64,000 nt of DNA from Halovivax asiaticus JCM 14624. Lineage in GTDB: Archaea > Halobacteriota > Halobacteria > Halobacteriales > Natrialbaceae. Shown here piece after piece: positions 2,185 to 8,011 of this stretch. Within the stretch, counting starts at the first letter, position 1. Each line of letters opens with the position of its first letter. The stretch covers positions 1 through 64,000 of the forward strand of contig NZ_AOIQ01000012.1 in the NCBI RefSeq assembly GCF_000337515.1, read 5' to 3'. Position numbers and translations under genes: made by a program. The notes under the pieces were generated by a model. That model saw only the letters and a list, made by a program, of their open reading frames with translations. It was not told the origin of the DNA and did no database searches.

Positions 2185-2191
2185 TCTTTAT
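2185..2191 (+). promoter_or_regulatory. TATA box of the biotin operon
   Basis: CTTTATT lies about 27 nt upstream of the GTG at 2217. This spacing supports that GTG as a leaderless start for bioB and places one promoter in front of the four overlapping bio genes. Confidence 0.45.
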
Positions 2192-2216
2192 TGGCTCGTA
2201 AACCAGCCCATGGATC

Positions 2217-3338
2217 GTGGTTTACGAGACCGGCAATCAGACGGTGGACGACGCAGTCGACAGAGTCGTCGCTGGTGAGCGCCTCGATCGCCGCGACGGG
2301 CTGGCACTCGTCGCACAGCCGCTCTCCGACCTCGCGCCGGCAGCCGACGCCGTCAGGGCACACTTCGGCGACGACACCGTCGACGCCTGCTCTATCGTCA
2401 ACGCGAAGGCTGGCAACTGCGCCGAGGACTGCGGCTTTTGCGCACAGTCGGTCCACTTCGACACCGGGATCGACACGTACGGCTTCCTCGATCCCGAAGA
2501 GATCCTCGCCGCAGCGAAACGGGCGGAACGCGACGGCGCCCAGCGGTTCGGGATCGTCGTCGCGGAGAAAGGTGTCTCGAAGGAACACCGCCCCGACGAG
2601 TGGGCCGACGTCCTCAGGGCGATCCGACTGGTTCGCGACGAGACCGACGTCGAGGTCGACGCAAGCCTCGGCATCCTCACGCGCGAGGAAGCGGAGATCC
2701 TGGCCGACGAGGGGATCAATCACTACAATCACAACATCGAGACCTCCCCGCGATATTTCCCCGAGATCATCGATAGCCACCGCTTCGAGGACCGCGTGAA
2801 GACGCTCGAACGCGCCAAGGACGTCGGGATGGACCTCTGTGCGGGTGTGATCCTCGGCATGGGCGAGGCGCCGACCGACCGCGTCGACGCGGCGATCGCG
2901 CTCCAGGAGATCGGGGTCTCCTCGCTCCCGGTGAACGTGTTGAACCCCGTCGCCGGGACGCCGCTTGGCGAACGCTTTGGCGACTCACCGGCGATCACGA
3001 CCGCCGAGATCCTCACGACCATCGCCGTCTACCGACTGCTGCATCCCGAGGCGCGGGTGCGGCTGACGGGTGGTCGCGAGGTCGCCCTCGAACCCGACGA
3101 ACAACACCTACCCTTCGAGGCGGGTGCCGACGGCATCCTCACCGGCGACTACCTCACCACGTCGGGCCAGTCACCCGGCGACGACATCGAGGTGATCGAA
3201 CGGGCGGGGCTGGAGCCGAATACAGCGGTCAACGACTTCGAGCCGGAGTCGGTCACCGGACACCCCGACGACGAGTCCGACCGCGTCGAGACGGCCGCCG
3301 GGACGGCGACGAGCGTCGCCGACGCGGTCGACGAGTGA
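2217..3338 (+). CDS. bioB: Biotin synthase (radical SAM), type II-like cysteine pattern
   Basis: 373 aa. It inserts sulfur into dethiobiotin, the last step of biotin synthesis. The radical-SAM cluster motif CAEDCGFC has its cysteines at 68, 72 and 75. BioB-family segments YNHNIETS, LCAGVILGMGE, LPVNVLNPVAGTP and VRLTGGRE are clear. The two cysteines that in E. coli BioB (C97, C128) help hold the sacrificial [2Fe-2S] cluster are absent: the regions read RFGIVVAEKG and VDASLGILT. Only C208, equivalent to C188, remains, and an extra cysteine (C58) precedes the radical-SAM motif. This resembles the type II BioB class. The last 40 residues are an acidic tail. GTG start, first gene of bioB-U-F-D. 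Confidence 0.93.
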   Translation: MVYETGNQTVDDAVDRVVAGERLDRRDGLALVAQPLSDLAPAADAVRAHFGDDTVDACSIVNAKAGNCAEDCGFCAQSVHFDTGIDTYGFLDPEEILAAAKRAERDGAQRFGIVVAEKGVSKEHRPDEWADVLRAIRLVRDETDVEVDASLGILTREEAEILADEGINHYNHNIETSPRYFPEIIDSHRFEDRVKTLERAKDVGMDLCAGVILGMGEAPTDRVDAAIALQEIGVSSLPVNVLNPVAGTPLGERFGDSPAITTAEILTTIAVYRLLHPEARVRLTGGREVALEPDEQHLPFEAGADGILTGDYLTTSGQSPGDDIEVIERAGLEPNTAVNDFEPESVTGHPDDESDRVETAAGTATSVADAVDE

Positions 3339-4498
3339 GTACAGATCGACGAGAGGAGAATCGCGATACGGTCGACAGAGACGAAAAACCAATGGACGAC
3401 ATACGCTTTGCCGTACTCGGAACGGGTGGCATCGGGAGACGAACGCTCGAGGTCGGACAGGACAAGGACGAGTTGACGCCGGTCGCGGCGTGTGACCGCA
3501 ACGGGATCGCCATCGACCACGACGGACTCGACGTCGAGGAGTTACTGGCGGCGACCGAAGGCAACGTCGCGAGCGGACCGACCGACGACGAAATCGAAAT
3601 CGACGGCGGTACGTCGGCAGACGGCGGCGGGGCGTCGACCGACGACGCTGCCGGCGGGACCACCGGCGGCGTCAAACAGTCCGGCGACGGTGCCGGGATC
3701 GTCGCCTCCAGACAGGGCACGCCGACGGAGACGCCGATCGACGACGTCATCGCCGAGAGCGACGAGATCGACGCCGTCGTGCTGGCGCTGCCGAACCTGG
3801 AACACGACTTCATCCCGCGTGTCGCGGAACGGTTCGCCGCAGCCGACTACGAGGGCGTTCTGGTCGACGTCCTCAAGCGCTCGCGGGTGATCGGTATGCT
3901 CGACGACCGCGCGGAGACGCTAGTCGACGCGGGCATCACTTTCGTCTGCGGCGCCGGCGCGACGCCCGGATTCCTCACCGGCGCGGCCGCGCTCGCCGCC
4001 CAGTCGTTCGTCGAGGTCGAAGACGTCGAGATCTGGTGGGGCGTCGGGCTCAAGTCCGGCTACGAGGACAATCGAGGCACCGTCCGCGAGGATATCGCTC
4101 ACCTGGACGGTTACGACGTGGAGACGGCCCGCGAGATGAGCGAGGCCGAGATCGAAGCGCTCATCGACGATCACGACGGCGTGCTGGAGTTCCAGGACAT
4201 GGAACACGCCGACGACGTACTCTTGGAACGGGCGGGTATCTGCGACGCCGACGACGTCACCGTCGGCGGGGTACTCGACGTCCGCTCCGACGAGAAACCG
4301 ACCACGACGACGGTCCGGGTCACGGGTCGGACCTTCGACGGCGAGCGCGGGACGAACACGTTCCAACTCGACGATGCGACGAGTATGGAAGCGAACGTCA
4401 ACGGGCCCGCACTCGGCTACGTAAAAGCCGCAGTACGGCGAAATCGTGCCGGCGACTTCGGCGTCTTCGGGCCGGCGGAACTGCTGCCCGGATTCTGA
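3335..4498 (+). CDS. bioU: BioU-like (S)-8-amino-7-oxononanoate synthase, replacing BioA
   Basis: 387 aa, NAD(P)-binding oxidoreductase of the saccharopine-dehydrogenase-like type. The Rossmann motif VLGTGGIGRR follows the second possible start (ATG 3392). The body includes LVDVLKRSRVIGML and FVCGAGATPGFLTGAAA. In cyanobacterial BioU an active-site lysine donates its side-chain amine to 8-amino-7-oxononanoate (KAPA), giving the diamino precursor and replacing BioA in a suicide reaction. K181 (from GTG 3335) in VLKRS is the candidate lysine. Gene order bioB-bioU-bioF-bioD without bioA supports the role. A Gly/Asp-rich insert spans about residues 85-130. The GTG overlaps the bioB stop, as elsewhere in this operon, but ATG 3392 is also plausible. 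The identification rests on context and fold, not an alignment. Confidence 0.72.
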   Translation: MSTDRREENRDTVDRDEKPMDDIRFAVLGTGGIGRRTLEVGQDKDELTPVAACDRNGIAIDHDGLDVEELLAATEGNVASGPTDDEIEIDGGTSADGGGASTDDAAGGTTGGVKQSGDGAGIVASRQGTPTETPIDDVIAESDEIDAVVLALPNLEHDFIPRVAERFAAADYEGVLVDVLKRSRVIGMLDDRAETLVDAGITFVCGAGATPGFLTGAAALAAQSFVEVEDVEIWWGVGLKSGYEDNRGTVREDIAHLDGYDVETAREMSEAEIEALIDDHDGVLEFQDMEHADDVLLERAGICDADDVTVGGVLDVRSDEKPTTTTVRVTGRTFDGERGTNTFQLDDATSMEANVNGPALGYVKAAVRRNRAGDFGVFGPAELLPGF

Positions 4499-5712
4499 TG
4501 GCCGAAGACCCCACGATCGATCGCGGGTTCGACCTCGACCGGCGGCTCCGCGAGCGCGAACAGGCGACCCTGCGTCGCCACCTCGACCCCGCGGCGACGG
4601 TCGATGCGCGGACGCGCTTCGCCGAGGATCCGCGGGGCGAAGCGCCGACGTTCGGGGCGAAGCGGCTCGTCTTCGCGTCGAACAATTACCTCGGGCTGGC
4701 GACCGACGACCGCGTCCGGCGCGCTGCCGAACGCGGCGCCAGTGTCGGAACCGGTGCCGGCGCCTCACGCCTCATCACAGGCGATACGGGTCACCACCGG
4801 GCACTGGAACGCGACCTCGCCGCGTGCAAGGCGACAGAACGCGCGCTGGTGTTCTCCTCGGGCTACGCGGCCAACGTCGGCACCATCGCGGCGCTGGCGC
4901 CCGACGTCATCTTCTCGGACGAACTGAACCACGCGAGTATCATCGACGGCTGCCGGCTGGCCGGTGCGGAGACGGTCGTGTACGACCACCGCGACCCCGA
5001 CGACCTGCGCGATCGAATGGCCGCCCGAGAGCGGGCTGGCGGCGACGACGAGGCCTGGCTGGTCGTCACCGACACGGTGTTCTCGATGGACGGCGACGTG
5101 GCCCCGCTCGAAGATCTCTGTACCGTCGCCGACGCGTTCGGCGCGTGGGTGATGGTCGACGAGGCCCACGCGACGGGCGTCTTCGGTGACGGCGGCGGAA
5201 TCGTCCAGCGCGAGGGGCTGGCCGACCGGGTGGACGTCCAGCTGGGAACGCTATCGAAGGCGCTGGCCAGTCAGGGCGGTTACGTCGCCGGCGACGAAGC
5301 GCTCGTCGAGTACCTGTCGAACGTGGCGCGGTCGTTCGTCTTCTCGACCGGACTGGCGCCCCCGGCCGCCGCGGCTGCCCGCGAAGCGCTGCGGATCGCC
5401 CGGGAGGGCGAGCGGACCGCCACGCTGTGGGAGCACGTGGAGACGCTCCGGCGGGGCCTCGAATCGATGGGCTACGAGGTCAGGGGGGAGACGCAGATTC
5501 TCCCCGTCGTAGTTGGTGATCGTCACGATGCGCTCGCACTCAGCGAGCGCCTCCGGGAGCGTGGCATCGTCGCGACGGCGATCCGACCCCCGACGGTGCC
5601 CGACGGGACCAGTCGCATCCGCGTGACGCCGATGGCTACCCACACCGACACGGAGATCCAGACCTGTCTCAATGCGTTCGAATCGGCGGGATCGGCGGTG
5701 GGGCTGCTATGA
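4498..5712 (+). CDS. bioF: 8-amino-7-oxononanoate synthase (KAPA synthase)
   Basis: 404 aa, alpha-oxoamine synthase family of PLP enzymes. It condenses pimeloyl thioester with alanine to give KAPA. Motifs are FASNNYLGLA, GTGAGASRLITGDTGHH, SDELNHASIIDGCRL, DTVFSMDGDVAPL, VDEAHATGVFG and the PLP-lysine segment GTLSKALASQGGY. The start ATG overlaps the bioU stop (TGATG) and the 3' end overlaps the bioD start (ATGA), so translation is probably coupled. In this operon its product would be the substrate of BioU. Glycine C-acetyltransferase is a close relative, but the operon settles the assignment. Confidence 0.92.
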   Translation: MAEDPTIDRGFDLDRRLREREQATLRRHLDPAATVDARTRFAEDPRGEAPTFGAKRLVFASNNYLGLATDDRVRRAAERGASVGTGAGASRLITGDTGHHRALERDLAACKATERALVFSSGYAANVGTIAALAPDVIFSDELNHASIIDGCRLAGAETVVYDHRDPDDLRDRMAARERAGGDDEAWLVVTDTVFSMDGDVAPLEDLCTVADAFGAWVMVDEAHATGVFGDGGGIVQREGLADRVDVQLGTLSKALASQGGYVAGDEALVEYLSNVARSFVFSTGLAPPAAAAAREALRIAREGERTATLWEHVETLRRGLESMGYEVRGETQILPVVVGDRHDALALSERLRERGIVATAIRPPTVPDGTSRIRVTPMATHTDTEIQTCLNAFESAGSAVGLL

Positions 5713-6395
5713 CCGACCGATCGCTCTCAGCGAGTCGGGACTTCGCCGTGGTCGGGACCGACACCGGCGTCGGGAAGACGGTCGTCACCGCCGGACTGGT
5801 CGGGTGGCTCCGGGACGATGGCGTCGACGCGCGGGCGATCAAGCCCTGCCAGACCGGCCATCCGCCGGACGACGACGCCGAGTTCGTCGGCGACGCCTGC
5901 GGCGATCCGGCGGCCGCGACTTGTCTCCGTCGGCTCGAACCCGCGCTGGCCCCCGCCGTCGCCGCGAGGCAGGCAAACGCCGACCTCGGTTACGAACGGA
6001 TTCGAGACGGCTGTCGGGACGCGCTCGAGGCGGCCTCGATCGGCGTCGTCGAGGGGATTGGCGGCCTCCGCGTCCCACTTTCGGATGGACGGGAGGTCGT
6101 CGATCTCATCGCCGATCTGGAACTCCCGGCGCTCGTCGTCGCCCGATCGGGACTGGGGACGCTCAACCACAGCGCACTCACCGTCGAGGCGCTCGAACGG
6201 CGCGGCATCGAGGTCCACGGGATCGTCCTCAACGAGTACGAGGGCGCCGACGTGGCCGAACGAACGAACCCCAGCGTGCTGGCGTCGATGACCGAGCGGC
6301 CGGTGTGGACGCTGGCGCCGATCTCGACCGACCGGCCGGGTACCGTTCCTGCCGCCGTCGAGGACGCGCTCGATCCGGACGTGTTCCCGCACTGA
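5709..6395 (+). CDS. bioD: Dethiobiotin synthetase
   Basis: 228 aa. It closes the ureido ring of biotin using 7,8-diaminononanoate, CO2 and ATP. The P-loop GTDTGVGKTVV is near residues 15-25; KPCQTG and VEGIGGLRVPLSDG are typical BioD segments, and the C-terminal region VLNEYEGADVAERTNPSVL matches the nucleotide-recognition part. Last gene of the operon, overlapping bioF by 4 nt. Confidence 0.92.
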   Translation: MTDRSLSASRDFAVVGTDTGVGKTVVTAGLVGWLRDDGVDARAIKPCQTGHPPDDDAEFVGDACGDPAAATCLRRLEPALAPAVAARQANADLGYERIRDGCRDALEAASIGVVEGIGGLRVPLSDGREVVDLIADLELPALVVARSGLGTLNHSALTVEALERRGIEVHGIVLNEYEGADVAERTNPSVLASMTERPVWTLAPISTDRPGTVPAAVEDALDPDVFPH

Positions 6396-6766
6396 GAACC
6401 GGCCGGCCCACTATTTTCGTTGACCAGTTGCGTCGATGTTCGGGAGACGAATACCTGCCGGGGAGACGCATACCTGTTGGGGAGACGACCACCGGGTCGG
6501 GCGACGAACTCGAATTTCGATGCGGACGATTCTTGCCGTAACTGGCAGTTATTAACCTCCACAGAGATATGCACTATACACATGGTTCGTCGGGACGCGT
6601 CGGCAATTCGCGACGGGGAATCGTCGGCGGATCGTCCGGTGACGGCAGGTAGCGATACCGCTGGCAAGGTATCCGCTAGCGATGGCATCACCGGCAGGAC
6701 GGCCGGAGGCGATCGAACAGGCGCATCCACGCGAACCGAATCGACGTGGCAGCGAGCGGCCCAGCT
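6396..6766. other. Intergenic region upstream of metX with leader or short ORF
   Basis: A TATA-like TTATTAACC lies at about 6547-6555, roughly 27 nt upstream of an ATG at 6582. From there an open frame of 71 codons runs to 6797, ending inside the first codons of metX. Its translation (Ser/Thr/Arg/Gly-rich, no motif) does not look like a folded protein. The segment therefore holds either a leader of roughly 185 nt for metX or a short upstream ORF. Nothing else was seen. Confidence 0.4.
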
Positions 6767-8011
6767 ATGGCGACCGACAGCGGGGTGGCCGCGGTGAGCG
6801 CGGAGCGAGTCGACCTCGGATCGTTCACGTTCGAATGTGGTGAGAGCGTTCCCGCACTCGAGGTCGCCTACGAAACCTACGGTGAGTTTACGGGTTCGAA
6901 TGCCGTCCTCGTTTGCCACGCCCTCACCGGCAGTGCACACGTCGCCAGACGCGGGAAAGCGGGCACAGGGGTGACCGACCAGACGACCGCCGGCCAGGCT
7001 CGCGCCTGGTGGGACGACACGGTCGGTCCGGGGGCGGCGATCGACACCACGGAGTACTTCGTCGTCTGCGCGAACGTGCCCGGATCCTGTTACGGAACGA
7101 CCGGCCCCGCAAGCGAGAATCCCGAGACGGGCGAACCCTACGGAAGCGCGTTCCCGCCGGTGACCGTCGGCGACTGGACGCGGGCGCAGCGTCGCCTGCT
7201 AGACGAACTCGGTGTGGGCCGGTTGCACGCCGTCGTCGGCGGCTCCGTCGGCGGGATGAACGCCCTCGAGTGGGTCCGTCGCTATCCCGACGACGTCGAT
7301 CGCGTCGCCGCCATCGCGACCGCTCCCCGACTCGACGCACAGTGTCTCGCGCTGGATGCCATCGCCCGGCGCGCCATCACGAACGACCCCAACTGGAACG
7401 GCGGCGACTACTACGGCGACGATCGACCGGACCCGGATCAGGGACTCGGGCTCGCTCGCCAGCTCGGCCACGTCATGTACCTCTCGAAGGACTCCATGGC
7501 CGAGAAATTCGGTCGACGGTCGGCGGGGCGCGACGCCGCCGGCGAGCGGTTCCCACCTGGTCCGGCGGCCGACTTCTTCCCCTACCGCGACGTCGAGTCC
7601 TACCTCGATTACAACGCCGACAGGTTCGTCGACCGGTTCGACGCCAACAGCTACTGCTACCTCACGCAGGCGATGGACGACTTCGACCTCGCCGCCGGTT
7701 TCGGCTCGGTCGCCGACGCACTCGCCGCATTCGCCGGGGAAGCCCTGGTCGTGAGTTTCACCGGCGACTGGCACTTCACGGTCGAGCAATCGAGCGCCGT
7801 CGCCGGCGGTTTCCGGGAGACGGGAACGGCGGTCGCCCACCACGTCGTCGATTCGACGCACGGCCACGACGCGTTCCTCGTCGAACCCGAACGCCTGAAC
7901 CCGCCGCTCGCGGATTTCCTCGTCGACGGCGTGGCCGGACGGGCGGTGACGGACGCCGATAACGCGACGGAACGTGACGGCCACGCCCCCGTTCACACCG
8001 GCCTGTTTTAA
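6767..8011 (+). CDS. metX: Homoserine O-acetyltransferase (MetX)
   Basis: 414 aa from ATG 6767; GTG 6746 and GTG 6794 are also possible starts. Alpha/beta-hydrolase fold enzyme that acetylates homoserine to feed MetY. Signatures are [29 protein letters not shown], the nucleophile elbow [12 protein letters not shown] (serine at 7244-7246), [12 protein letters not shown] with the catalytic Asp, and [10 protein letters not shown] with the catalytic His near the C-terminus. Length is normal for the family. It converges on the sensor-kinase gene, with stop codons overlapping by 4 nt. Confidence 0.92.

Follow-up and report, generated by a model that had tools for sequence, protein, structure and literature searches.

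A probable haloarchaeal BioU in the bioB-U-F-D biotin operon

The second gene of the biotin operon examined here very probably encodes a haloarchaeal BioU that acts by the self-sacrificing chemistry of its Synechocystis counterpart, in an operon that is most likely repressed by BirA. BioU as a kind of enzyme is already known from cyanobacteria; the finding is that of a widespread, mis-annotated archaeal branch, so that a one-shot biosynthetic enzyme of cyanobacteria is now seen in about 38% (150/391) of the sampled Halobacteria genomes as well. Haloarchaeal BioU fills a gap in the table of a 2018 survey, where Halobacteria appear with bioF, bioD and bioB and without bioA or bioW (PMC6138646). 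We found no paper on haloarchaeal BioU in the literature searched; the original report (Sakaki et al. 2020), which lay outside that search, may mention archaeal homologues.

The second gene and its functional residues

The window, that is the whole stretch of 64,000 nucleotides analysed, belongs to contig 12 in a genome of 3.24 Mb that is 99% complete and that the relatives found place among the haloarchaea. Four open reading frames with overlapping ends, bioB, bioU, bioF and bioD in that order, occupy positions 2217-6395 on the forward strand. The NCBIfam models identify bioB (biotin synthase, 2217..3338; TIGR00433, 337.8 bits, cut-off 225), bioD (dethiobiotin synthase, 5709..6395; TIGR00347, 114.8 bits, cut-off 83.3) and, marginally, bioF (8-amino-7-oxononanoate synthase, 4498..5712; TIGR00858, 424.9 bits, cut-off 426.45). 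The ORF coordinates and these matches bear out the sequence-only reading, which had described overlapping bioB, oxidoreductase, bioF and bioD genes. In its longest reading, bioU spans 3335..4498 on the same strand and encodes 387 amino acids. Relatives of the protein begin at the methionine encoded at 3392 (residue 20 of this reading), making this ATG the likeliest start (368 amino acids), so that translation probably leaves out the 19 residues at the N-terminus of the longest reading and the 368-residue numbering is to be preferred. The operon is flanked by genes for O-acetylhomoserine aminocarboxypropyltransferase (557-1972) and homoserine O-acetyltransferase (metX, 6746-8011), two consecutive steps of the methionine pathway.

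The sequence-only reading had taken the oxidoreductase to be BioU-like, and both its sequence and its predicted fold agree. Its best PDB sequence matches are the entries for Synechocystis BioU (Slr0355; E 8.5e-86), to which it aligns in two stretches (residues 20-73 and 124-387 of the 387-residue reading); about 47% of the 316 aligned residues are identical. The AlphaFold model (mean pLDDT 81) retrieves as its top five PDB fold matches 6itd, 6k37, 6ir4, 6k38 and 6k36, which are all five BioU structures, at target-normalised TM scores of 0.91-0.92 and about 41% identity. The next fold matches, diaminopimelate and D-amino acid dehydrogenases, reach a TM score of only about 0.5. The two BioU proteins have in common their fold and NAD(P)-binding domain, two functional residues (K124 and H233 in Synechocystis) and a place in the bioB/F/D pathway that BioA would otherwise fill. 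Unlike the Synechocystis protein, that of the window is the product of a bioB-U-F-D operon, which carries a BirA-type operator.

A further difference lies within the Rossmann domain, where haloarchaeal BioU carries an acidic linker that is absent from Slr0355. In the model, this linker (residues 59-99 of the 368-residue reading; 3566..3688, forward strand) has a pLDDT below 50 and is predicted to be disordered; among haloarchaea the aligned stretch varies in length from 34 to 84 amino acids. The inserted linker and the limited identity to Slr0355 explain why the protein matches the NCBIfam BioU model NF047886 convincingly (E 9e-100) but scores 333.8 bits, under the curated cut-off of 600. This cut-off is a naming threshold rather than a defining biochemical feature and was apparently set for cyanobacterial sequences, which is probably why archaeal BioU is not named automatically. 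Pfam has no family for the second gene.

The functional residues are in place. The lysine of DVLKRSRV (K181 of the longest reading), singled out earlier as a candidate for the sacrificial residue, aligns with Synechocystis K124 both in the Slr0355 alignment and in the K124A structure 6itd; it is K162 in the 368-residue numbering (codon 3875..3877, forward strand). Likewise, Synechocystis H233, whose H233A mutant has been solved as 6k38, aligns with H272 (H291 in the longest reading; codon 4205..4207, forward strand). Each residue is invariant in all 113 sequences of an alignment that includes Slr0355 and some same-species duplicates drawn from two collections. The lysine's DxLKR context in haloarchaeal BioU recurs in Slr0355 and in a divergent relative that belongs to a different class of the phylum. 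Some BioU sequences appeared to lack the lysine, an artefact of the pattern used in the search (LV/LI versus MI before the aspartate). A non-suicide BioU with serine in place of the lysine reportedly exists in Haloferax; we found none in the papers searched or in a 15-genome genus, presumably Haloferax (one member matches an H. elongans protein at 100%), and the BioUs found there keep the lysine.

Secondhand summaries of the BioU mechanism name K124 as the amino-group donor (PMC12915131, PMC7133116). From homology to Synechocystis BioU, we infer the same chemistry and a single turnover in haloarchaea, with the product of 3335..4498 predicted to convert 8-amino-7-oxononanoate to diaminononanoate(-carbamate). 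BioF would supply the 8-amino-7-oxononanoate, which BioU would condense with the ε-amino group of its own K162. The adduct would be reduced by NAD(P)H and its amine then carboxylated, after which an NAD(P)+-dependent oxidation would free the diaminononanoate carbamate and leave the lysine as allysine. Each BioU protein would thereby yield one product. BioD would then close the ureido ring and BioB insert the sulfur.

An alternative is that the enzyme forms DAPA catalytically: ammonia or free lysine would provide the nitrogen, and the conserved lysine would form no more than a transient adduct. The fold relatives, meso-diaminopimelate dehydrogenase and D-amino acid dehydrogenase, are ordinary amine dehydrogenases and would suit such a reaction, but we consider it improbable given that the lysine and the histidine of a single-turnover enzyme are both invariant in the 113 sequences and that the DxLKR context extends from Slr0355 to the divergent relative. 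We give an equally low probability to a variant in which each haloarchaeal BioU protein, in its salt-rich cytoplasm, goes through many turnovers, either by repair of its allysine or by use of an outside amine, and in which the acidic linker would be part of the change. The finding also makes it possible to ask by genetics whether cells really spend a whole protein on each molecule of the vitamin.

The missing BioA and the distribution of bioU

BioA acts at the same pathway step as BioU, yet it is a PLP-dependent aminotransferase with full turnover and an unrelated fold. The lack of bioA from the operon, noted earlier, extends to the whole genome: the best match to the BioA model TIGR00508 reaches 215.8 of the required 405 bits and comes from an ArgD/LysJ-like protein. 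This is one of three class-III aminotransferases in the genome, whose best NCBIfam matches are to acetylornithine transaminase/ArgD/LysJ, to an acetylornithine-type family and to glutamate-1-semialdehyde aminomutase (HemL-like), only the last of them exceeding its cut-off. None of 391 Halobacteria genomes holds a protein above the TIGR00508 cut-off, which 6 of 14 control genomes pass.

Among these 391 genomes, 150 have strong matches to BioU, 151 have BioD and 180 have BioB. Every one of the 150 BioU genomes also has BioD and BioB (Fisher P 3e-110 for the co-occurrence, a descriptive value that ignores phylogeny). In the single genome with BioD only (G226), contigs end inside bioF, which places the bioB-bioU side in an assembly gap. 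The order bioB-U-F-D holds at 69 of 80 loci in named genomes, the remainder being contig ends or changes of order. In Haloferax mediterranei, HFX_5076, 5077 and 5079 (bioD, bioF and bioB) respond together to the loss of an Lsm protein (PMC10779274); by its position, HFX_5078 would be bioU.

The second gene could instead encode a regulator or an unrelated oxidoreductase, with a class-III aminotransferase performing the BioA step. In plasmid records, the homologues from haloarchaea do go under the names 'transcriptional regulator' and 'hypothetical protein', and Synechocystis BioU sediments in an RNase-dependent manner, ranking eighth among the RNA-dependent proteins in a gradient experiment (PMC12475003). 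This explanation is largely refuted, and we consider it very unlikely: the fold and the functional residues are those of BioU, the aminotransferases stay far under the bioA cut-off, and it would give no reason why BioU occurs without exception alongside BioD.

Thirty of the 391 genomes have bioB without a strong BioU match, and in 13 of those examined bioB stands alone within 15 kb, an arrangement compatible with the finishing of imported dethiobiotin. Others retain remnants of bioU, either N-terminal (G100, from the window's own genus, and G214) or C-terminal (G312 and G181), and none of these four has bioD above the cut-off. The bioF gene is intact beside bioB in G181 (L057), G033 (L047), G241 (L050), G312 (L168) and G214 (L169), although of bioU and bioD these loci keep remnants at most. 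In four of these five genomes, its dN/dS against BioU-bearing congeners is 0.10-0.20, similar to that between BioU-bearing congeners: purifying selection on bioF persists despite the loss of bioU and bioD. We saw no replacement enzyme beside bioB-bioF in these loci; in three of them, the adjoining open reading frame looks like replication factor C. At two further loci, L165 (G264) and L166 (G247), bioU is frameshifted while bioB, bioF and bioD are intact, reflecting either sequencing error or early decay.

Taken together, the fold, the conserved lysine and histidine, the absence of BioA, the co-occurrence with BioD and the disappearance of bioD where bioU is deleted argue that BioU performs the DAPA step.

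Promoter and putative BirA operator

The start of the operon has the layout of an archaeal promoter. In 98 distinct haloarchaeal bioB upstream regions, a T-rich element lies at -30 to -26, with T at -28 in all 98, and is preceded by CC..AA at -38 to -33; in the window, the TATA-like element is TTTATT (2187..2192, forward strand). From this layout, the bio mRNA would be leaderless or near-leaderless.

Over the bioB start codon lies a perfect palindrome, CTCGTAAACC-N14-GGTTTACGAG (2195..2228, unstranded), which we take to be akin to the BirA box of bacteria. The window holds one match to the inner part of the palindrome, with none expected from shuffled sequence, and the 3.24-Mb genome holds exact copies of this inner part at two places: at bioB, and 6 bp upstream of the bioY open reading frame (L184), which is followed by an ABC-type ATPase. 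The left, non-coding half-site, GTnAAC, is found at a fixed spacing in nearly all of the 98 distinct bioB starts. On the coding side, valine codon 2 of bioB is GTT in 98/98, though GTT makes up 8% of the valine codons in these genes. The genome also encodes a BirA with a DNA-binding domain (HTH_11 and BPL domains; ORF L153:1228-2145). With the palindrome GTAAACC-N14-GGTTTAC at bioB and bioY and a BirA protein with a helix-turn-helix, it resembles a BirA regulon; it departs from one in that the operator, at which binding is predicted, extends over the start codon, in an archaeal transcript that is apparently leaderless. The palindrome, its conserved half-site, the helix-turn-helix BirA and the promoter layout together make BirA control of the operon likely, an assignment read from its anatomy, and biotin-charged BirA would most likely repress it by way of this palindrome.

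The presence of bioY and its adjoining ABC-transporter ATPase raises the question of whether the operon is non-functional and biotin is taken up from outside, and our failure to find BioW in the genome, as a source of pimelate, would fit. We regard this as very unlikely, since all four bio genes are intact, the operator is conserved and two congeners of the window's organism keep bioU at about 90% identity.

Relatives outside Halobacteria and on plasmids

Among 383 genomes searched within the phylum, two from outside the class Halobacteria gave strong BioU matches, one of them partial. The intact protein (G665, locus L181) keeps the lysine, in DALKRSQA, and the histidine, in MEHADD. It is nearer to Slr0355 (56% identity) than to haloarchaeal BioU (48%) and, unlike the latter, has no long linker. 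Its operon reads bioB-bioW-bioU-bioF-bioD and so includes the bioW that the window's genome lacks. Viruses and phages gave no BioU match.

In Haloferax larsenii, a 344-kb plasmid (NZ_CP078064.1, L157) carries the entire bioB-U-F-D operon, and bioU is found in six other haloarchaeal plasmid records, so the pathway may move between species. Public annotation hides BioU as a 'transcriptional regulator'.
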